A stretch of DNA of 36,406 nt from an uncultured Mollicutes bacterium (GTDB lineage Bacteria; Bacillota_I; Bacilli_A; RFN20; CAG-826), in the NCBI GenBank assembly GCA_946539555.1, contig CAMNHN010000005.1, forward strand, positions 1 through 36,406. Direction: 5' to 3'. Below, piece after piece: positions 685 through 22,900 of this stretch (positions are counted from its first letter, which is position 1; the number at the start of each line of letters is the position of its first letter). The position numbers were made by a program, and so were the translations under genes. The notes beneath the pieces were generated by a model. It searched no databases. It was not told where the DNA came from and worked only from the letters and a program-made list of their open reading frames with translations.

Positions 685-2959
<2,275 letters not shown>

Positions 2960-2960
<1 letters not shown>

Positions 2961-3367
2961 TGGAAAAGAAAATCCACTTAGAAATAATTTCAATTGATGG
3001 TAAAGAAGAATATGTTGATGTAGATACAGTCTATGTCGATGTTCCAAATTCTGGAGTATTAGGTATTCTTCCTAATAGACAACCAGTTGTTGCCTTACTT
3101 CATATTGGCTATTTTTATTATTCAATCGGTGATAAAAAAGTAGTTTATGCAATAAGTGGAGGAATTTTAAATTTTAGAAATAATAAAGCTGTTATTTTAG
3201 CAGATACACGGGAAAGAGAAGATGAACTTGATCTTGCTAGAATAACACGAGCAAAAGAAAGAGCGGAAGAAATTTTAGGTTCAATTGATAATAAAAATTC
3301 AGTTGAATATGAAAATGCTTCTTTTAGCTTAAAGAAAGCACTTAATAGATTAAAACTTTTAAACTAG
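2960..3367 (+). CDS. atpC: F1 ATP synthase subunit epsilon
   Basis: Position after atpD, about 135 aa, beta-sandwich N-terminus plus helical ARITRAKERAEEIL C-terminus. Confidence 0.93.
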
Positions 3368-3379
3368 GTAGGTATCGTT

Positions 3380-4588
3380 ATGAAAAATTTTATCTTTATC
3401 TCTCCGAATTTTCCTGAATCATATCGGAGATTTTGCATTGCTTTAAGAGATTGCGGAATCAATGTACTTGGAATTGGTGATTGCCCATGGTTTGAGCTTG
3501 CTGATGAGGTAAAAGGCTCTCTTGAAGAATATTATTATTGCTACGATTTATCTGATGATGAAGCGCTAATTAAAGCAATTTCTTATTTCCAAGATAAATA
3601 CGGAGAAATTGATTATATTGAAAGTAATAATGAATATTGGTTAGAGCAAGATGCAAAAATGAGAACAATTTTTGGTATTACTACTGGACCTAATTTAGAA
3701 ACAATTAAAAATTATAAACAAAAATCACTTGAGAAATATTTTTATGAAAAAGCTGGGGTAAAAACTGCTCGATGGACACTTGATACTTCTTTTGAAAAAG
3801 TAGAAGCTTTTGCTAAAGAAGTTGGCTATCCGATATTTGCAAAACCTGATAATGGAGTTGGTGCACAAGATACCTATAAAATAAAAAATATTAAGGATTT
3901 GCAGGCTTTTTTCAATAATAAAGACCCTCATAAACCATATATTATTGAAGAATTTGTTGATGGACAAATAATTTCTTTTGATGGAATAACTAATTCAAAA
4001 GCCGAACCATTATTCTACACACATCATGTTTTTATTAATGATAATTCAAAGATTGTAAATGAAAAATTAGATGATATGTATTATTGTGTTCCAACAGATA
4101 AAGTTCCTCAAGAACTTGTTGAAGCGGGAATTAAAACTTTAAAATCTTTTAATGTTCAAAATAGATTTTTCCATCTTGAATTTTTTAAATTAAATTCTGA
4201 CCATGCTTATTTAGGAAAGAAAGGGTCAATTGTTGCTCTTGAAGCAAATATGAGACCTGCTGGAGGCTTTACACCTGATTTAATTAATTTCGCAAATTCT
4301 ATAAATTGTTATAATATATATGCACAAAGCATCGCATATGATGAAAATCGTGAATATATGAATCATGAAAAGTTCTTTTCATGTGCAATCAGCAGAAGAG
4401 ATGAATTAAAATACAAACATTCTTTTGAAGATGTTTTAAAGAATTATAAAAATAATATCTGTTTCTATGGAAGATATGCTAAAGCGATTAGAGATGACAT
4501 GGGCGATTCATTTGTGTTTGCAAAGTTTAAAACACTCGATGAACTCTTTGAATTTGACAATTATGTAAGAGCAAAAGAAGGAGAATAA
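3380..4588 (+). CDS. ATP-grasp domain protein (carboxylate-amine ligase-like), substrate unknown
   Basis: ATP-grasp signatures: GYPIFAKPDNGVGAQDTYKI, PYIIEEFVDGQIISFDG, ALEANMRPAGGFTPDLIN. Confidence 0.8.
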   Translation: MKNFIFISPNFPESYRRFCIALRDCGINVLGIGDCPWFELADEVKGSLEEYYYCYDLSDDEALIKAISYFQDKYGEIDYIESNNEYWLEQDAKMRTIFGITTGPNLETIKNYKQKSLEKYFYEKAGVKTARWTLDTSFEKVEAFAKEVGYPIFAKPDNGVGAQDTYKIKNIKDLQAFFNNKDPHKPYIIEEFVDGQIISFDGITNSKAEPLFYTHHVFINDNSKIVNEKLDDMYYCVPTDKVPQELVEAGIKTLKSFNVQNRFFHLEFFKLNSDHAYLGKKGSIVALEANMRPAGGFTPDLINFANSINCYNIYAQSIAYDENREYMNHEKFFSCAISRRDELKYKHSFEDVLKNYKNNICFYGRYAKAIRDDMGDSFVFAKFKTLDELFEFDNYVRAKEGE

Positions 4589-4590
4589 TT

Positions 4591-5136
4591 ATGTACGAAG
4601 GCTTAATTAAATTATTTAGTAATTTTGATGAAAAGTCGATTACACCTAACACATTTTATGCTTTTATTGAAATTCCAAAAGGTGCAAAAATAAAATATGA
4701 ATTTGATAAACAAGTTGGTGTTATTAAAATGGATAGAATTTTATATACTTCTACACATTATCCTCACAATTATGGTTTTATCCCTTTAACTTATTGTGAT
4801 GATGGTGACCCACTCGATGTTTTAGTATTATGCAGCGACTCTTTAGCTCCAAGCACAATTGTTGAATGTAAGCCAATTGGTGTATTAGAAATGCTTGATG
4901 GAGGAAAAAGAGATTCAAAGATTATTGCAGTCCCTTTACATGATCCTTATTACAATTGTTACAATGATATTTCTGAAATCCCAGTACATGTTGCAGAAGA
5001 ATTAAAACACTTCTTTGATGTTTATAAAAATTTAGAAAATCTTGTTGTTAAAACAGGAGATGTTGATAATTCTGGTGTTGCAAAACAAGTTATCGAAGAA
5101 GCAATTGAATTATATAAAAATACCAAATTTAATTAA
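4591..5136 (+). CDS. ppa: Inorganic pyrophosphatase, family I
   Basis: YPHNYGFIPLTYCDDGDPLDVLVL active-site segment; 181 aa. Confidence 0.93.
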   Translation: MYEGLIKLFSNFDEKSITPNTFYAFIEIPKGAKIKYEFDKQVGVIKMDRILYTSTHYPHNYGFIPLTYCDDGDPLDVLVLCSDSLAPSTIVECKPIGVLEMLDGGKRDSKIIAVPLHDPYYNCYNDISEIPVHVAEELKHFFDVYKNLENLVVKTGDVDNSGVAKQVIEEAIELYKNTKFN

Positions 5137-5162
5137 AAATCTTGCAAAACTGAACTATTTTT

Positions 5163-5687
5163 ATGTTAGGAATAATTTTATATAGACCAGAAAAGCCAAG
5201 TAATGTTGGAAATATTTTTAGAACAGCTATGGCAATTGAAGGGAAACTGATTATTATTGGTCCCCTTTCTTTTGAGTTAGATGATAAATCGCTTAAACGT
5301 GCTGGAATGGATTATATTAAAGAAACTGATTATGAATATTTTAAGGATTATGACTCTTTTTTAAAGGAATATAGTGATGCAAACATTTATTATGTCACTC
5401 GATATTCTAAAAATATTTATACTCAAAACGATTATTCAAATTTAACAGAAGATATTTATTTCATGTTTGGAAGAGAATCAACCGGTATCCCTCATGAAAT
5501 TTTAAGAGAGAATTATGAAAAAACCATTAGAATTCCAATGGTCATTAGCGCTCGTAGTTTAAATGTCTCAAATACCGTAGCCATCATAGTTTATGAAGCT
5601 TTAAGACAAAGAAATTTTTATGGTTTAGCTACTAGAGAAACTATAAAAGGTGAAGATTTTTTAGAAGAAGAAACTAAAAACGTTTAG
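5163..5687 (+). CDS. trmL: SpoU-family tRNA 2'-O-methyltransferase (TrmL-like)
   Basis: RPEKPSNVGNIFRTA, FGRESTGIP, IRIPM...SLNVSNTVAIIVYEALRQ SPOUT knot motifs. Confidence 0.88.
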   Translation: MLGIILYRPEKPSNVGNIFRTAMAIEGKLIIIGPLSFELDDKSLKRAGMDYIKETDYEYFKDYDSFLKEYSDANIYYVTRYSKNIYTQNDYSNLTEDIYFMFGRESTGIPHEILRENYEKTIRIPMVISARSLNVSNTVAIIVYEALRQRNFYGLATRETIKGEDFLEEETKNV

Positions 5688-7053
5688 CTTCTTTAATTAA
5701 AGAAGAAAAATCATATTTTAAATTTTTGATTAAATAGGACTCGTAACTTGAGAGCTTAACTAAGCCAGGTTCTGATCCTTTTTTTATTGTTGAACATTTT
5801 GCCACTATAATTTCCCCATCATTGTGACCAGTTAAAAATGCACAAAACTCACAAGCAAATTCTAATATTTCATCAGTAAGTTCGCTTGAAAAAATTATTA
5901 CATGATTCCCGTGTTCGTTTTTTGTGTGTAAAAAATAATCATTTCTTGAGGCAAATTTCCAAGTTAAATTATCGTTTTGTAAACTGTTTTTTCCAAAACC
6001 AATTTTAACTCCATTATGGATTAAATAATAAGGTTTTGCAGCGTTTTTTAAATTTTTCGGAGCTTTTTGTTTTGCAGTTTTTAATAATTTCTTTTCAATT
6101 AATTCTGGAATTAATTCTTGATAATCGTTCTCGTTATAGAAAGGAAGAGAGGCAAAAACAGAATTTAAATAATCAATTTCATGCTCAGTTTTATCAACAT
6201 AATCTTTGGATGATATAAGTGTTTGCTTTGCCTTTTTATATGTTTTATAAAGTTGATTTAAATTTTGAGAAGGAGAAAAATTTTCATTAATTTTGATTTT
6301 TTGACCATAATAATCAAAATAAGAGTCACCTCTTTTTATCTCATCCATTATTGTTAAAAAATGGTCACCATAATTTTTATATTTTAAATTTTTTGTCGCC
6401 TCATCTTGATCTTCTTTGATTTTTTCTAATTTCTTATTTAATGATTTTATTTTCCTTTTTATATTTAAAGAAATTTCCTTATATTTTGAAGCAACATAAA
6501 GCGATTCAAGATTTTGAACATAAAATTTTTCATATTGTTCGTCTTTTTCTTTAACTTCTTTAGAAAAATTCAGTTTTTCTGGTGGCAAATATTTTACATT
6601 TTTTAAAATAGGATGATTTGTATCTATTCCTCTAAAGCGGAAAGCTTCTTCTATTTTGTCCTCATTAAGCAAAATCAAATTTGCATTAGATTTAAAAATT
6701 TCAAAAATCAAAAAATAATGTATTTTGTCATAAGTATCGTTAATTTTGCTAAATTCTAAAGAAAGGATATTATCATCATTTACAGTTGATGCATTTATCA
6801 AGCAAGAGTTTGCAAGTTTAAATTTAATTTTTTGATAAAAAGAAGAAGTAGAAGAAAATGTATATCGTTCGTCAATAAGAGTAACAAAAGGATTTTTCGA
6901 ATTTAATGAGATAAAAATCGATTTTGATTTTGACCTAGAGAATCTAAAAATGTAATCGAATTCTGATAAACATTCGATTCTATTTAAATAACTTCCTCTC
7001 AAATCTTTGTTAATGTTTGAGACAATTTCAACCAATTTTTCTTTAACAAGCAT
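5674..7053 (-). CDS. rqcH: Rqc2/RqcH-like NFACT protein (ribosome-associated quality control), short version
   Basis: NFACT-N-like start, coiled coil, NFACT-R-like C-terminus (RNDYFLHTKNEHGNHVIIFSSELTDEILEFACEFCAFL...PGLVKLSSYESYLI). Likely start is ATG at 7053; the ORF track starts at an upstream TTG (7059). Confidence 0.83.
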   Translation of the reverse strand: MLVKEKLVEIVSNINKDLRGSYLNRIECLSEFDYIFRFSRSKSKSIFISLNSKNPFVTLIDERYTFSSTSSFYQKIKFKLANSCLINASTVNDDNILSLEFSKINDTYDKIHYFLIFEIFKSNANLILLNEDKIEEAFRFRGIDTNHPILKNVKYLPPEKLNFSKEVKEKDEQYEKFYVQNLESLYVASKYKEISLNIKRKIKSLNKKLEKIKEDQDEATKNLKYKNYGDHFLTIMDEIKRGDSYFDYYGQKIKINENFSPSQNLNQLYKTYKKAKQTLISSKDYVDKTEHEIDYLNSVFASLPFYNENDYQELIPELIEKKLLKTAKQKAPKNLKNAAKPYYLIHNGVKIGFGKNSLQNDNLTWKFASRNDYFLHTKNEHGNHVIIFSSELTDEILEFACEFCAFLTGHNDGEIIVAKCSTIKKGSEPGLVKLSSYESYLIKNLKYDFSSLIKEAKRF

Positions 7054-15760: not shown

Positions 15761-15955
15761 TTAATTTTCTTTAAGTGATTTGTTGAGGGTACGATAAGCA
15801 CGAGCACTCATTCTTACTTTACAAACTTGACCATCGATTTCGACTCTGTATGTATGTAAGTTGACGTTCCATCTTCTTCTTGTTGCTCTTAAACTGTGTG
15901 AACGGTTGTTACCACTTAATGGTCCTTTACCAGTTACTGGACAATATCTTGACAT
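15761..15955 (-). CDS. rpmB: 50S ribosomal protein L28
   Basis: MSRYCPVTGKGPLSGNNRSHSLRATRRRWNVNLHTYRV...; SD AGGAGG. Confidence 0.96.
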   Translation of the reverse strand: MSRYCPVTGKGPLSGNNRSHSLRATRRRWNVNLHTYRVEIDGQVCKVRMSARAYRTLNKSLKEN

Positions 15956-16016: not shown

Positions 16017-16264
16017 GAACAAAAATTCTATTTGAAAATTCATAATTTTCTTTTTAATTTTTGTTTCAAAATTTAATTTTAAATTTCGATTTTCAAAATC
16101 GATTTTTAAAAACAGAAATTGAAATTCGATTTTCATTTTTCATATTTAATTTTCGAAATTAATTTAAAATATTAAATCACTGAAAATATATGCAAATCGC
16201 AAACGAAAAGACAAAATTTTTTGAAAATTTTCTTACAAATTCGAATTTTTATTATTTAATAGCT

Positions 16265-16292
16265 TACCTTAAAATGATATAATTTTAAGGTA
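16265..16292 (+). promoter_or_regulatory. Inverted repeat around the -10 box of the jetABC-like operon
   Basis: TACCTTAAAAT gatata ATTTTAAGGTA, 11-bp perfect arms, TATAAT at 16278-16283, first ATG at 16295. Confidence 0.6.
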
Positions 16293-16294
16293 TT

Positions 16295-17713
16295 ATGAAC
16301 TTATTTGATATTATACCTGAAAATTATTTTGGATTATTTGGCGGGAAGAACAAAGCAATCTATCTTGATAGTTTGATGGTTCTTTATAGTTTACTTGAAA
16401 GTGATGAAGCCTTTATCAAAAAAAGTGACTTCATTAAGACTTTAAGAGAAAGAGGTAAAGAACTCGAAAATTTTTCTTATGAGGATGAAGAATTAGATTC
16501 TACTGAAGACAATTCTCTTTTAGCTGAGACTGCAACAGGTAAAGCTTCTTATATTGTTAAACGATTAGAAGAAACTGGTTGGATTGATGTAATGATGGAT
16601 CCTGACACATTTGAAGAAAGCATCATCATGCCTCAATATTCAATTTTAATTTTGAAAGCTTTTAAAGATATTATTAGCGATGAAGAAAGTCCATACATGG
16701 CGCTTGTTCATTCAACTTATAGTGAACTTAAACTTGAAGATGAAGAACAAGATGAACTTATGTATGCAACTCTTTCAAGATGTTACGATAATACAAAACG
16801 TTTAAAAGTTGAACTTATTACAATTAATCATTCAATTAGAATTTTCCAAAATAGGTTATCAAAATTATTTGATACTAATCGTGTTTTACATGATTATTTT
16901 GATGTTTATAAAAACAAAATTGTTGATAGATATTATCATCCACTTAAAACTTTTGATAGCGTTGCTAAATTTAAAAGACCTATTATCAAAATTTTAGATA
17001 GATGGTTAAACGATAGAATTTTAAGAGAAAAAATTATTAGACAAGCTCAAGTTTCTAACCCAACAGAAACCCGTGAAGCAATGCAAGCTGATGTAATTGA
17101 AAAAATTAACTACATCACAGATACTTATGAAAAACTCAATTTAACAATTTCAAGTATCGATAAAGAAAATAACGCTTATACAAAAAGTAGTGCCAACAAG
17201 ATTTTATATCTTAATAACAACGACAAAACTATTAAGGGTCATTTAGAAAATATTCTCAAAGAATATGCAAAAAATATTAATGATCCTCGAAATTTAAGAA
17301 AAATTTTATCAAAAATGCAAGACAGCATTTATTTCTATGAACAAGGCTATATTAATGGAGATTCGTTGACTCTTCCAATATTAAGAAAAATTAGAGAAGA
17401 TGATCTTCCAATGGAACTTGTTTCATTCGATGATGCTGCAGACTTCTTAATGAGCGATTTCATCGAAGAAACTAGATTAATTTTCACAGATGAAAAAGTA
17501 TATGGATTTATGGAATTAGCGTTTGGTGATAAAAACGAAATCAATATTTCCGAAATCCCGATTGTCGATACTGATGCATTTATTTGTTTAATTCTTGCTG
17601 TTATTAAAAAAGATGATGAAAATTGCTTCTATTGGGTTGAAGAAGTTGATAAAACAAAGATTCGTTCTTACGGATACATCGTTCCAAATTTCAAATTTAT
17701 AAGAAAGGAGTAG
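16295..17713 (+). CDS. jetA: JetA-like (Wadjet/MksF-type kleisin) protein
   Basis: MNLFDIIPENYFGLFGGKNKAIYLDSLMVLYSLLE N-terminus typical of JetA-family proteins; followed by JetB- and JetC-like genes. Confidence 0.82.
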   Translation: MNLFDIIPENYFGLFGGKNKAIYLDSLMVLYSLLESDEAFIKKSDFIKTLRERGKELENFSYEDEELDSTEDNSLLAETATGKASYIVKRLEETGWIDVMMDPDTFEESIIMPQYSILILKAFKDIISDEESPYMALVHSTYSELKLEDEEQDELMYATLSRCYDNTKRLKVELITINHSIRIFQNRLSKLFDTNRVLHDYFDVYKNKIVDRYYHPLKTFDSVAKFKRPIIKILDRWLNDRILREKIIRQAQVSNPTETREAMQADVIEKINYITDTYEKLNLTISSIDKENNAYTKSSANKILYLNNNDKTIKGHLENILKEYAKNINDPRNLRKILSKMQDSIYFYEQGYINGDSLTLPILRKIREDDLPMELVSFDDAADFLMSDFIEETRLIFTDEKVYGFMELAFGDKNEINISEIPIVDTDAFICLILAVIKKDDENCFYWVEEVDKTKIRSYGYIVPNFKFIRKE

Positions 17714-17719
17714 AAAAAT

Positions 17720-18352
17720 ATGTTTACTGAAGATTATTTAAAAATGCCAAGCAGTGATCAAAATGAATTTTCTACTGTTGTTAACAAATTACTTTTAAAA
17801 GGATTTATTGTTCGTGATATTTTCGATACTAAAGAGAAAGTTATTCGAATTAATCCTGATTATAGATTTTTAGAACGTTATTTTGAAGTCGTTAATGACT
17901 ATTTAAAATATGCCGGATGGAACGTTGAAAAAGATGTTATTTTAGGTGTTGTTGCTTTAACAAATCTTTATGGTGAAAATAGAATCAGAATGGATAGAGA
18001 AACATCTCTTATCCTTTTTGCTTTAAGATTGATTTATGAAAATTATAAAAATGAATCAAATTCAACTAATCAAGCAATCTATTTAACTACTCCAGGTTTA
18101 TTAAAAACAATGATTGATGATGGAATTACTATGCCAGGAAGAAAATTAAACGGAAGATCAATTTCACGTTCATTAAGATTTTTAGCAAATCATAATATTA
18201 TTTCTAAAGTTAGTGGAAATTATGATGAAGGAAACGTTTCTTTCTACATTCTTCCAAGTATTGTTTACGCTCTTGATAATGAAAAGATTGTTGCTATGAG
18301 CAATGCTCTTGATGAACTCAATTCTCGTAATCAAGGAGAGGGGGCATTTTAA
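17720..18352 (+). CDS. jetB: JetB-like (MksE-type, DUF4194-like) protein
   Basis: 210 aa, winged-helix-like RSISRSLRFLANHNIISKV; between jetA- and SMC-like genes; SD AAAGGAG. Confidence 0.8.
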   Translation: MFTEDYLKMPSSDQNEFSTVVNKLLLKGFIVRDIFDTKEKVIRINPDYRFLERYFEVVNDYLKYAGWNVEKDVILGVVALTNLYGENRIRMDRETSLILFALRLIYENYKNESNSTNQAIYLTTPGLLKTMIDDGITMPGRKLNGRSISRSLRFLANHNIISKVSGNYDEGNVSFYILPSIVYALDNEKIVAMSNALDELNSRNQGEGAF

Positions 18353-21300
18353 TGAAACAATTAAATAAAGTAAAAATTATAAATTGGCATTATTTTTGGA
18401 ACGAAACAATCGACATTCGTCCAATCGTATTTTTAACTGGTGTTAATGGTTCTGGTAAATCAACTTTAATCGATGCTATTCAACTTGTTTTACTTGGCGA
18501 TACAACTGGAAAATATTTTAATAAAGCTGCTATGGACAAATCATCACGTACTCTTGTTGGCTATTTAAGAGGAGAACTTGGTGATACAGTTGATGGTGGT
18601 TTTAAATATTTAAGAAATGGTAGATTTACAAGCTACGTTGCACTCGAATATTACGATACTTTACATGACTCATATTTTACTATGGGCATAGTTTTTGATG
18701 TTTTTAGCGAAGGAACAATTGATCACAAATTCTTCTTCCTTGATAGCAAGATTCCAGATAATGAATTTGTTGAAAACAATATTCCTTTAGACATTAAACA
18801 ACTTAATAAATTCTTTGAAGAAAATTATCCATTACAATACCAATTCTTCGATAGTAATCGTCAATATCAAGACTTTATGAAGAAGAAATTTGGTGGATTA
18901 AAAGATAAATATTTTAGTCTTTTAAAGAAAGCTACATCTTTCTCACCAATTACAGACATTGCTACATTTATTACTGAATATGTTTGTGATCCTCAAGCAA
19001 ACATTGAACTTGATGCTCTTCAAGATAATATTCTCCAATATAAGAGACTTGAAAATGAAGCTTTTAATATTGAAAAGAGAGTAAAAAGACTTGAAGAAGT
19101 CAATGATATTTATGCAAGTTATAAAAAACAAAAAGAAAGTTTAACTGTTGCTCAATATATTTTAGAAAGATGCCAATTAGAGCAAAGTTACGATAAATTA
19201 AGAAAATTAAATAAACAAATCGAAAATAATAAGAAAAGAATCGACGAAATCGATGGTGAACTTAAAGAATTTGATGCAAATCTTGAAGAACTTGAAACTC
19301 GTAAGAGCAGACTCATCATGGATAAAGCATCAAATGATACAGTTAGAATTACTGAAGATTTGAAACGTCAAAAGAAGGACGTTACAGATAAAATTAATTC
19401 TATTCAAAACAACATTTCAACTGTTAAAACCTCACTTTATGGATATGCAAACAATTTTGCAAATTGCGGAGAAGCATTAATTAAGAATTTAGAAAAAATT
19501 AATGTTGATATTTTAGGTGAAGATAGAGCAGAAGAAATTGAAGAAATTAAAGAAGCTTCAAAAGATATTAGACAAGTTACAGCGTCATTTAAACAAAATT
19601 ATTTATCAAATATTGTCGAACTTGATAAAGGAGCCCTTAAAGATTTTAGAGATGCCTTACTTATTTACAAAAATAAGATATCTTCACTTGCAGTTTCTTT
19701 AGCAAGAACTATTCAAAATTTAGAAAAGAATATTAAAGCAATTCGTGAGCAAGAAAACGACATGAAGAGTGGTACAAAAGCTTACGATGCTAGACTTGTT
19801 ATGGTTAAAGCAAGACTTGAACAAGAATTACAAGCTCAATTCGGTAAAAAGATTGAAGTTTCAATTTATGCCGATTTAGTTGATATTGATGATTTAAGTT
19901 GGTCAAATGCAATTGAAGGTTTCCTTTCAGGACAAAAATTTAATTTATTTGTTGCTCCAAAATATTATGCTGCAACATATAAAATTTTAAGAAAATTACT
20001 TGAAGAATATAAATTCTATGGCACAGCTCTTGTTGATGAAGAAAAAATCATCGAAAAAGGATTTGATGCTGATAGAGGTTCACTTGCTGAAGAAATCATC
20101 ACAGATCATGATGGTGCTAGAGCTTATACAAACTTCCTTATTGGTAGACTTTATAAAGCAAAAAATATCGAAGAAGCTCGTGAAAGCGGAAACGGAATTA
20201 CAAAAGAATGCGATCTTTATCGTAATTATTCGCTTCAAAAGATTAATCCAAGACTATATCATGAAAGCTTCATTGGTAGAGGAATTAATGAAAGATTCCT
20301 TGAAGAAAAGAGCAAGCAAATCACTGAATATAGTAGTAACTTAAATTATTTTAGACAAATTAAAGCAATAATTGATGAAGCAAATAAACTTGAAGTTTTT
20401 ACTTCTTCAGAAATTGATAACTATTTCATTCTTTTAAGTCACGTTGCTGATTTAGCAGGTTATGAAGCAAATCTTTTATATATAAATAAGGAATTAGAAG
20501 GTTCAGATACACCATTAAGCGAATCACTTGATAATAGAATTAAAGATATAGAGCAAGATATTAAAGATATTCATGATTCAAGAGATAGAATCGTTCTTGA
20601 AAAAGGTAATTTGAGTTCAGATATTGAAACAATTAAATCTGAAAAAATTGTTGATGAACAAAAAATCGCAAAGCAAAAAGAAGATTCAATTAATACAAAC
20701 TATGATCCTTTCCTTGTTGAAGAAATTGCTCTTCCAGCTTATGAAAGCAAACTTGCTGAAGGAAAATCAGTTTTTGAAATTTTCCAAGAAACAAATGTTG
20801 AATATGCACGTTTAACATATCTTGTTAACAATTTCAGAAACCAAGTTATTAAATTAAGAAGAGATTATTTACAAGATTATCATCTAAGTTATGATGCAGA
20901 AGCAGATGATAATAAAGCTTTTGATGATGAATTAACAGAATTTAGAGATGTTAAACTCCCTCAATATAGAGAAAAAATTCAAGATTCATACAATAAAGCA
21001 ACTAAACAATTTAAAGATGACTTTATCTTTAAACTTCGTGGAGCAATCGAAGATGTTGAAGATCAAATCGACAACTTAAATGTTGCTTTACGTCAATCTG
21101 CATTTGGCAAAGATTTATATAGATTTACAGTCAAACCATCAACAGTTTATAAGAGATATTATGACATGTTAAAAGATGATCTTATCCTTGAAACAGGTAA
21201 AGATGATTCTGAATTTGTTGAAAAATATAAAGATGTCATGGAAGAACTCTTCAGACAAATTGTTGATGTTGGTGAAGGTGAAAAGAATGCTTTATTACTT

Positions 21301-21717
21301 GAAAACGTTGCAAAATTCACAGATTATCGTTCATATTTAGAGTTCGACCTTATTGTTTACAATAAGGAAACTGGTGATGAACAACGTCTTTCTAAGATGA
21401 TTAAGAAGAAGTCAGGTGGTGAAACTCAAACACCATTCTACATCGCAGTTCTTGCATCATTTGCTCAACTTTATCATGTTAATGATGAAGGAGAAATGGG
21501 CAACACAACACGTCTTATCATATTCGATGAAGCTTTCTCAAAAATGGATAAGACCAGAATGACACAAGCAATTAAACTTCTAAATGATTTCAAATTACAA
21601 GTTATTTTATCTGCCCCTTACGACAAAATTCCAGATATTTCACCACTTGTTGATGAAACACTCATTGTTTTAAGAGATAAAAATAGAAGTACAGTTAGAC
21701 TATTTGAAAAAGAATAG
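18352..21717 (+). CDS. jetC: JetC-like (MksB-type) SMC-like ATPase
   Basis: Walker A GVNGSGKSTLIDAIQLVLLG, long coiled coils with a hinge-like WSNAIEGFLSGQKFNLFV, signature KKKSGGETQTPFY, Walker B TRLIIFDEAFSKMD. Confidence 0.9.
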   Translation: MKQLNKVKIINWHYFWNETIDIRPIVFLTGVNGSGKSTLIDAIQLVLLGDTTGKYFNKAAMDKSSRTLVGYLRGELGDTVDGGFKYLRNGRFTSYVALEYYDTLHDSYFTMGIVFDVFSEGTIDHKFFFLDSKIPDNEFVENNIPLDIKQLNKFFEENYPLQYQFFDSNRQYQDFMKKKFGGLKDKYFSLLKKATSFSPITDIATFITEYVCDPQANIELDALQDNILQYKRLENEAFNIEKRVKRLEEVNDIYASYKKQKESLTVAQYILERCQLEQSYDKLRKLNKQIENNKKRIDEIDGELKEFDANLEELETRKSRLIMDKASNDTVRITEDLKRQKKDVTDKINSIQNNISTVKTSLYGYANNFANCGEALIKNLEKINVDILGEDRAEEIEEIKEASKDIRQVTASFKQNYLSNIVELDKGALKDFRDALLIYKNKISSLAVSLARTIQNLEKNIKAIREQENDMKSGTKAYDARLVMVKARLEQELQAQFGKKIEVSIYADLVDIDDLSWSNAIEGFLSGQKFNLFVAPKYYAATYKILRKLLEEYKFYGTALVDEEKIIEKGFDADRGSLAEEIITDHDGARAYTNFLIGRLYKAKNIEEARESGNGITKECDLYRNYSLQKINPRLYHESFIGRGINERFLEEKSKQITEYSSNLNYFRQIKAIIDEANKLEVFTSSEIDNYFILLSHVADLAGYEANLLYINKELEGSDTPLSESLDNRIKDIEQDIKDIHDSRDRIVLEKGNLSSDIETIKSEKIVDEQKIAKQKEDSINTNYDPFLVEEIALPAYESKLAEGKSVFEIFQETNVEYARLTYLVNNFRNQVIKLRRDYLQDYHLSYDAEADDNKAFDDELTEFRDVKLPQYREKIQDSYNKATKQFKDDFIFKLRGAIEDVEDQIDNLNVALRQSAFGKDLYRFTVKPSTVYKRYYDMLKDDLILETGKDDSEFVEKYKDVMEELFRQIVDVGEGEKNALLLENVAKFTDYRSYLEFDLIVYNKETGDEQRLSKMIKKKSGGETQTPFYIAVLASFAQLYHVNDEGEMGNTTRLIIFDEAFSKMDKTRMTQAIKLLNDFKLQVILSAPYDKIPDISPLVDETLIVLRDKNRSTVRLFEKE

Positions 21718-21766: not shown

Positions 21767-22900
21767 ATGGTAAGAAAAGTCGTTGCAATGATTCTTGCTG
21801 GTGGTAAAGGCACAAGATTACAAGCTTTAACTAAAAAAATTGCAAAACCAGCGGTCTATTTTGGAGGGAAATATCGTATTATAGATTTTTCTCTTTCAAA
21901 TGTTGCTAACAGTAACATCCAAAGCTGTGGAGTTTTAACTCAATATGAATCAGTTGCCCTTAATAAATACATCGGTAATGGTTCTGTCTGGGGATTCGAT
22001 GGAGTCAATGGTAAATGTTTAACACTCGCTCCTCGTCAAACTGAAGAGGGTTTATCTTGGTATGATGGAACTGCTGATGCTATCTATCAAAACCTTGACT
22101 TTTTAGATGAAGAAAACCCTGATTATGTTCTCATTTTAAGTGGTGATCATATTTATAAAACTACTTATGATGAAATGCTTGAACAACATATCAAAACCGG
22201 AGCAGCATGTACAATTTCAGTCATTGAAGTCGACTGGAAAGAAGCTTCAAGATTTGGAATTCTTGAATGTGATGAGAATTTAAGAATTCAAAAATTCGTT
22301 GAAAAACCAAAAGTACCAAAGAGCAATTTAGCTTCAATGGGTGTTTATATTTTCACTTATAAAGAATTAAGAAACGCCTTAATTAAAGATAGAAAAATTG
22401 AAGGTACAGAACACGACTTTGGTAAAAACATCATTCCTTATTTATTAAATTCTGGTAAAAAACTTTATGCATATAAATTTAAGGGATATTGGAGAGATGT
22501 TGGAACACTTGATTCTTTACATCAAGCAAATATGGAACTTTTACCATCAAAAAGATCTGAAGATACCATTAATTTCGATGTTGATCCAATAATTTATACA
22601 GAAGATACACATTCTTCACCAACATTTATGGGTAAAAAAGCATCAGTTTCTGATTGTTTAATCAACCAAGGCGCAATGATTTTTGGTAAAGTTTCTGAAT
22701 CTGTCATTTCAAATGAAGTACTTATTGAAGAAGGAGCTGTTGTTACAAATTCAGTTGTTATGCCAGGAGTTGTTATTGGTAAAAACGCTCATGTAAATAA
22801 CGCAATTATTGGACCAAAAACACAAATTAAAGACGGTGAAGTTATTAATGAAAAAGGCGATAAAGTCGTATTAATTGATTATGAAAGGAGCCTTCAATAA
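21767..22900 (+). CDS. glgC: Glucose-1-phosphate adenylyltransferase
   Basis: ILAGGKGTRLQALTKKIAKPAVYFGGKYRIIDFSLSN, GTADAIYQN, SGDHIYK. Confidence 0.96.
   Translation: MVRKVVAMILAGGKGTRLQALTKKIAKPAVYFGGKYRIIDFSLSNVANSNIQSCGVLTQYESVALNKYIGNGSVWGFDGVNGKCLTLAPRQTEEGLSWYDGTADAIYQNLDFLDEENPDYVLILSGDHIYKTTYDEMLEQHIKTGAACTISVIEVDWKEASRFGILECDENLRIQKFVEKPKVPKSNLASMGVYIFTYKELRNALIKDRKIEGTEHDFGKNIIPYLLNSGKKLYAYKFKGYWRDVGTLDSLHQANMELLPSKRSEDTINFDVDPIIYTEDTHSSPTFMGKKASVSDCLINQGAMIFGKVSESVISNEVLIEEGAVVTNSVVMPGVVIGKNAHVNNAIIGPKTQIKDGEVINEKGDKVVLIDYERSLQ

Follow-up and report, generated by a model that had tools for sequence, protein, structure and literature searches.

The jetABC operon

The window, that is, the whole stretch of 36,406 nucleotides analysed here (contig CAMNHN010000005.1), contains three co-directional genes coding for a JetA-like kleisin, a JetB-like KITE subunit and a JetC-like SMC ATPase (Table 1). 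The genes are tightly packed, with a 6-nt gap between jetA and jetB and a TAATG overlap between jetB and jetC, as a preliminary description made from the sequence had reported for a JetA-, JetB- and JetC-like operon. Their best PADLOC matches are JetA1, JetB1 and JetC1, which places all three subunits in type I Wadjet rather than outside the Jet and Mks families. Walker A (GVNGSGKST, residue 30), the SGGE signature (residue 1021) and Walker B (LIIFDE, residue 1055) are intact in JetC, again as first described, and the protein matches the Pfam profile SbcC_Walker_B (E=6e-26) and JetC entries in the PDB (E=7e-13). The AlphaFold model of JetB (pLDDT 87) has its best PDB matches in chains of JetABC from Pseudomonas aeruginosa PA14 and of Wadjet from Escherichia coli, followed by MukE. 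For the poorer model of JetA (pLDDT 77, pTM 0.45), TM-scores are low; a chain of Wadjet-II JetABC comes first and chains of MukBEF follow. As judged from the profiles, the motifs and the JetB model, the set of an SMC ATPase with its kleisin and KITE partners is present and its ATPase motifs are intact.

Table 1. Features of the operon and its surroundings (window coordinates; for the reading frame between jetC and glgC in relatives, the locus code precedes the coordinates)
Feature	Position	Strand	Description
rpmB	15761-15955	-	near the operon in the window
Promoter-like site, TTAATA-16-TATAAT with TG	16256-16283	+	consensus scan only; just 5' of jetA
jetA	16295-17713	+	472 aa, JetA-like kleisin; PF18982 JetA E=9.6e-88, PADLOC JetA1 E=2.6e-115
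jetB	17720-18352	+	210 aa, JetB-like KITE subunit; PF13835 DUF4194 E=6.5e-16, PADLOC JetB1 E=5.5e-66
jetC	18352-21717	+	1121 aa, JetC-like SMC ATPase; PADLOC JetC1 E=0
jetC-glgC intervening ORF	L056 11421-12335		
jetC-glgC intervening ORF	L059 11405-12307		
jetC-glgC intervening ORF	L063 11430-12347		
jetC-glgC intervening ORF	L065 11397-12254		
jetC-glgC intervening ORF	L074 11478-12398		
jetC-glgC intervening ORF	L080 11441-12307		

The promoter-like site upstream of jetA suggests that the operon may have a promoter of its own, in a region where the number of such sites in the consensus scan does not exceed that in shuffled sequences. Only 11 nt separate the end of the extended -10-like hexamer from the jetA ATG, and a ribosome-binding site is not clearly recognisable 5' of this ATG (window 16256-16295); jetA may therefore be leaderless, or may start at a later codon.

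Genomic neighbourhood

Housekeeping genes, among them glgCDA and rpmB, lie on both sides of the operon, in agreement with the preliminary description, and the flanking genes further include priA, rlmN, leuS, tyrS and genes for a PP2C phosphatase and a protein kinase. The place of the operon is fixed in most loci of the family, down to approximately 50% JetC identity, with rpe and a membrane-protein gene upstream and with leuS and glgC-glgD-glgA on the downstream side. Several of the family's genera have an ORF of ∼285–306 aa with a membrane-like N-terminus between jetC and glgC (Table 1), with one match to DUF3137 and one weak match to DUF2079. This ORF of ∼290 aa was considered as a possible replacement partner, and rejected, being membrane-like and absent from the window's genus.

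Other families of the class, which carry code labels in our genome sample (f1 being the family of the window), keep JetD-less jetABC in other places that are just as fixed. In f27, it lies directly upstream of sepF in all five loci (L122, L123, L125, L127 and L128), often also with ileS, which links JetD-less jetABC to a cell-division neighbourhood. Most loci of f28 have dnaJ and a PadR-like gene in front of the operon and rsmE-mtaB behind it, and in many loci of f16 the operon stands between a DEAD-box helicase gene and ptsI or a peptidase gene.

Absence of JetD

Type I Wadjet restricts circular plasmids by cleavage. In the window, glgC starts at position 21767, 49 bp downstream of jetC (the spacing had been put at about 50 bp), and no jetD stands between them, as first noted; JetD_C (PF09983) has no match in the entire genome to which the window belongs. 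This genome is a MAG of 969 kb in 58 contigs that is only 74% complete, so that its lack of JetD is weak evidence, and for this reason relatives were searched. The sample comprised 96 genomes of the window's order, many of those searched being MAGs, with orthologous JetC defined by an identity of at least 34%. Orthologous JetC was found in 72 of the 96: in the window's own genome, in 24 of 25 genomes of the same genus (the single exception is 52% complete), in 10 of 32 genomes of the family's other genera and in 37 of 38 from other families. Gene order and full-length proteins are conserved through the order. The operon is thus retained vertically, with synteny kept, in the genus and the order's other families, but less so in the other genera of its own family.

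No JetD_C was found anywhere in 59 of the 72 genomes with orthologous JetC, most of these 59 being >90% complete; the genome-wide search also covers loci where a contig ends and the absence of JetD cannot be checked locally. JetD_C matches, one of them sub-threshold, occur in 15 of the 96 genomes, and 13 genomes hold both the orphan, JetD-less jetABC and a JetD. In all 12 loci fetched from the 15 JetD_C genomes, however, the gene for JetD immediately follows a divergent second copy of jetC (∼26% identity). These results bear on the reading of the operon as an ordinary Wadjet defence system that relies on a nuclease from another locus or of an unrelated kind; a JetD elsewhere and an unrelated nuclease had both been named at first. 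The incompleteness of the window's genome and the 13 relatives with a jetD would be compatible with it, but a JetD elsewhere, in this genome or in relatives, is a matter of a minority and of another jetC copy in the loci read. Nor was a nuclease gene recognised beside the operon, where the neighbours change between families, and defence with a separate nuclease is accordingly considered improbable.

Few alignment columns separate JetD-plus rows from JetD-less ones, and this comparison brought out no residue signature that would mark a lost JetD interface. The published IFDR motif of JetB was unrecognisable in both groups. The nearest relatives found outside the order are full jetABCD systems, from Geosporobacter subterraneus (38% JetC identity) and a Peptococcaceae MAG (40%).

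A decaying Wadjet remnant would also lack jetD, but the three reading frames are intact with all ATPase motifs and the proteins are conserved over their full length across the order. Compared with a relative of 91% JetC identity, dN/dS is 0.05 for jetA, 0.05 for jetB and 0.10 for jetC, which is in the range of the neighbouring glgC, glgD and glgA (0.06–0.10), and the jetABC genes are therefore under purifying selection. Decay after the loss of jetD is largely refuted by these data, and its remaining probability is very small.

The main rival to a role as a chromosomal condensin, discussed below, is a cleavage-free anti-plasmid complex, which would still serve in defence by extruding or trapping small circular DNA, so that plasmids are silenced or mis-segregated without being cut. 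The type I Wadjet identity of JetA, JetB and JetC speaks for such a silencer. Defence islands are patchy, however, whereas this operon holds a stable place among housekeeping genes and is nearly universal in the genus and in most of the order's families; a jetD-bearing system is also present in 13 relatives. Plasmid silencing is thus judged unlikely, if the least unlikely of the alternatives considered.

Phylogeny of JetC

In a tree of 96 JetC sequences, the JetD-less rows fall in several separate clades. AU tests under a mixture model with 42 JetC rows rejected a joint clade for each pair of groups, namely the order and f16 (p=2e-32), the order and f26–28 (p=5e-44), and f16 and f26–28 (p=2e-5), ruling out a single origin of all JetD-less jetABC. 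Loss of JetD is therefore recurrent, and the JetC trees show that it happened separately at least three times: once each in the order of the window, f16 and f26–28, at the least. Within the order, the JetD-less rows do not form one clade that excludes a JetD-bearing pair from Clostridia (AU p=0.004), which suggests either that JetD was lost there more than once or that the genes have moved between lineages.

Absence of SMC-ScpAB

Neither a match to the SMC hinge (PF06470) nor ScpA was found in the window's genome. Across the 96 genomes of the order, ScpA gave nothing above threshold (9 of 14 control genomes were positive), and the sole SMC_hinge matches, at 20–31 bits, lie within JetD-less JetC itself, so that no true hinge was found. 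Canonical SMC-ScpAB is thus missing in the order on the basis of the ScpA and SMC_hinge searches, and within the reach of these searches no kleisin/KITE SMC complex other than JetABC was detected in its genomes. The matches within JetC, weak but above threshold, were observed in families f5 and f8 (L085–L089), suggesting that the hinge of JetD-less JetC in these families may be close to the canonical SMC hinge.

The same pattern was followed in 247 genomes of the class, nearly all ≥90% complete, which are a sample and not the full class; a phylum-wide census redrew the same class and added nothing. ScpA was found in 116 of these genomes, a true SMC hinge in 115 and either of them in 118, whilst JetA was found in 66 and JetD_C in 16. 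Combined with the fetched loci, these counts give JetD-less jetABC in 56 of 129 genomes without SMC but in just 6 of the 118 with it (Fisher p=5e-13), in a test that ignores relatedness, which matters because both traits are strongly clustered by family.

A possible condensin derived from Wadjet

Since the operon lacks JetD, lies among housekeeping genes order-wide and encodes the only SMC-type complex found, it has probably turned into a chromosome organiser. The most likely reading, held with somewhat more confidence than doubt, is that in this order of Bacilli with small genomes the JetD-free descendant of type I Wadjet acts as a chromosomal condensin in place of SMC-ScpAB. JetC as the SMC motor, JetA as the kleisin and JetB as the KITE subunit would assemble a Wadjet-type complex without the nuclease, which would load on the chromosome and, as in Wadjet, use ATP to extrude DNA loops. 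Loop extrusion could then help to compact and separate sister chromosomes, similar to MukBEF in gammaproteobacteria. A cleavage-free complex acting as a condensin was among the options of the preliminary description; the order-wide housekeeping slot, the lack of SMC-ScpAB and the purifying selection favour this option. These features, the identity and intactness of the genes and the lack of JetD are shown by the data, and the assembly of the complex, its loop extrusion and its role on the chromosome are inferred.

Strictly speaking, the operon is not Wadjet, since it lacks JetD, the subunit that defines the system. It shares with type I Wadjet (JetABCD, also MksFEBG or EptABCD) the gene order jetA-jetB-jetC and homology of the three proteins over their full length, but differs in the missing gene for the JetD toprim nuclease, in its housekeeping slot and in its vertical retention through the order. 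With SMC-ScpAB it would share the presumed cellular role, although neither ScpA nor a canonical SMC hinge protein was detected in the order's genomes. Precedent for the idea exists in MksBEF of Pseudomonas and in MukBEF. P. aeruginosa, which has MksBEF without MksG, retains SMC-ScpAB, whereas the operon described here is type I Jet by profile, belongs to another lineage and occurs where no SMC-ScpAB was found. In one bacterial lineage, SMC-ScpAB has been replaced by MukBEF, an SMC complex with kleisin and KITE subunits (PMC10586767). JetABC is likewise a kleisin/KITE SMC complex, with a predicted JetB structure that resembles MukE and a predicted JetA structure that weakly resembles MukBEF chains, and by analogy may work like MukBEF. 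The similarity in sequence is only distant, and JetC is not MukB by profile, the MukB N-terminal domain (PF04310) scoring 21.8 bits over 54 residues only, below the 23-bit cut-off, whereas JetC1 fits over the full length.

A transition from Wadjet to MukBEF/MksBEF has been put forward as speculation (PMC10586767), and the case of the window fits this proposed route, except that the proteins are of the type I Jet family and the loss occurred repeatedly. As JetD-bearing and JetD-less JetABC occur in the same genus, and even in the same genome, this transition could be tested with matched pairs. Extended to the phylum, the claim would be that type I Wadjet, in a phylum where SMC-ScpAB is missing from many lineages, was disarmed by loss of JetD at least three times and became the sole chromosomal condensin, for which the chances are put at slightly below even. 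In the literature covered, to which subscription journals and preprints mostly do not belong, no description was found of a recurrent replacement of SMC-ScpAB by JetD-less type I Wadjet in this phylum. If true, a machine of defence would repeatedly have been converted into a housekeeping motor, a present-day counterpart to the origin proposed for MukBEF. The loop-extruding core of Wadjet would be separable from its nuclease and able, repeatedly, to take over chromosome organisation. The label "Wadjet anti-phage" given by annotation pipelines may then name housekeeping genes.

Distribution beyond the proposed role

Several lineages have neither SMC-ScpAB nor jetABC by profile: families f12, f19 and f23, most of f21, those members of f16 that have small genomes, and 22 genomes of f1 with high completeness. 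The genomes of f12, f19, f23, f21 and f1 concerned are ≥90% complete, and the statement covers the ScpA, hinge and JetABC profiles. Divergent JetC proteins that had been missed were considered as an explanation and rejected, as a profile built from 32 JetC sequences gives only short, mostly Walker-A matches in the jet-less genomes; those read out resemble RecF, RecN and SbcC. These lineages apparently manage with no SMC condensin that could be recognised. An SMC-type complex is therefore not a strict requirement in this group, and indispensable would be too strong a word for the orphan jetABC; this is the chief evidence against the proposed condensin role. This leaves some room for an SMC-like complex that acts on the chromosome in a more limited way, such as DNA repair or the handling of replication forks or the terminus, since a global condensin may be dispensable in the group. 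Against this, JetABC apart, no kleisin/KITE SMC complex was detected in the genomes of the order, and a role short of global condensation is given only a small chance.

A condensin role in place of SMC-ScpAB would also have to accommodate family f14 (L136, L138, L140, L141 and L142), where genomes with SMC-ScpAB carry JetD-less jetABC, in some cases alongside a complete jetABCD; JetD-less jetABC is therefore not tied only to the loss of SMC. It was also observed in Lachnospiraceae, on a secondary replicon: a 252-kb plasmid of Agathobacter rectalis (L178, NZ_CP143948.1) carries jetABC at 1232–6824, followed by a gamma carbonic anhydrase gene and no jetD.
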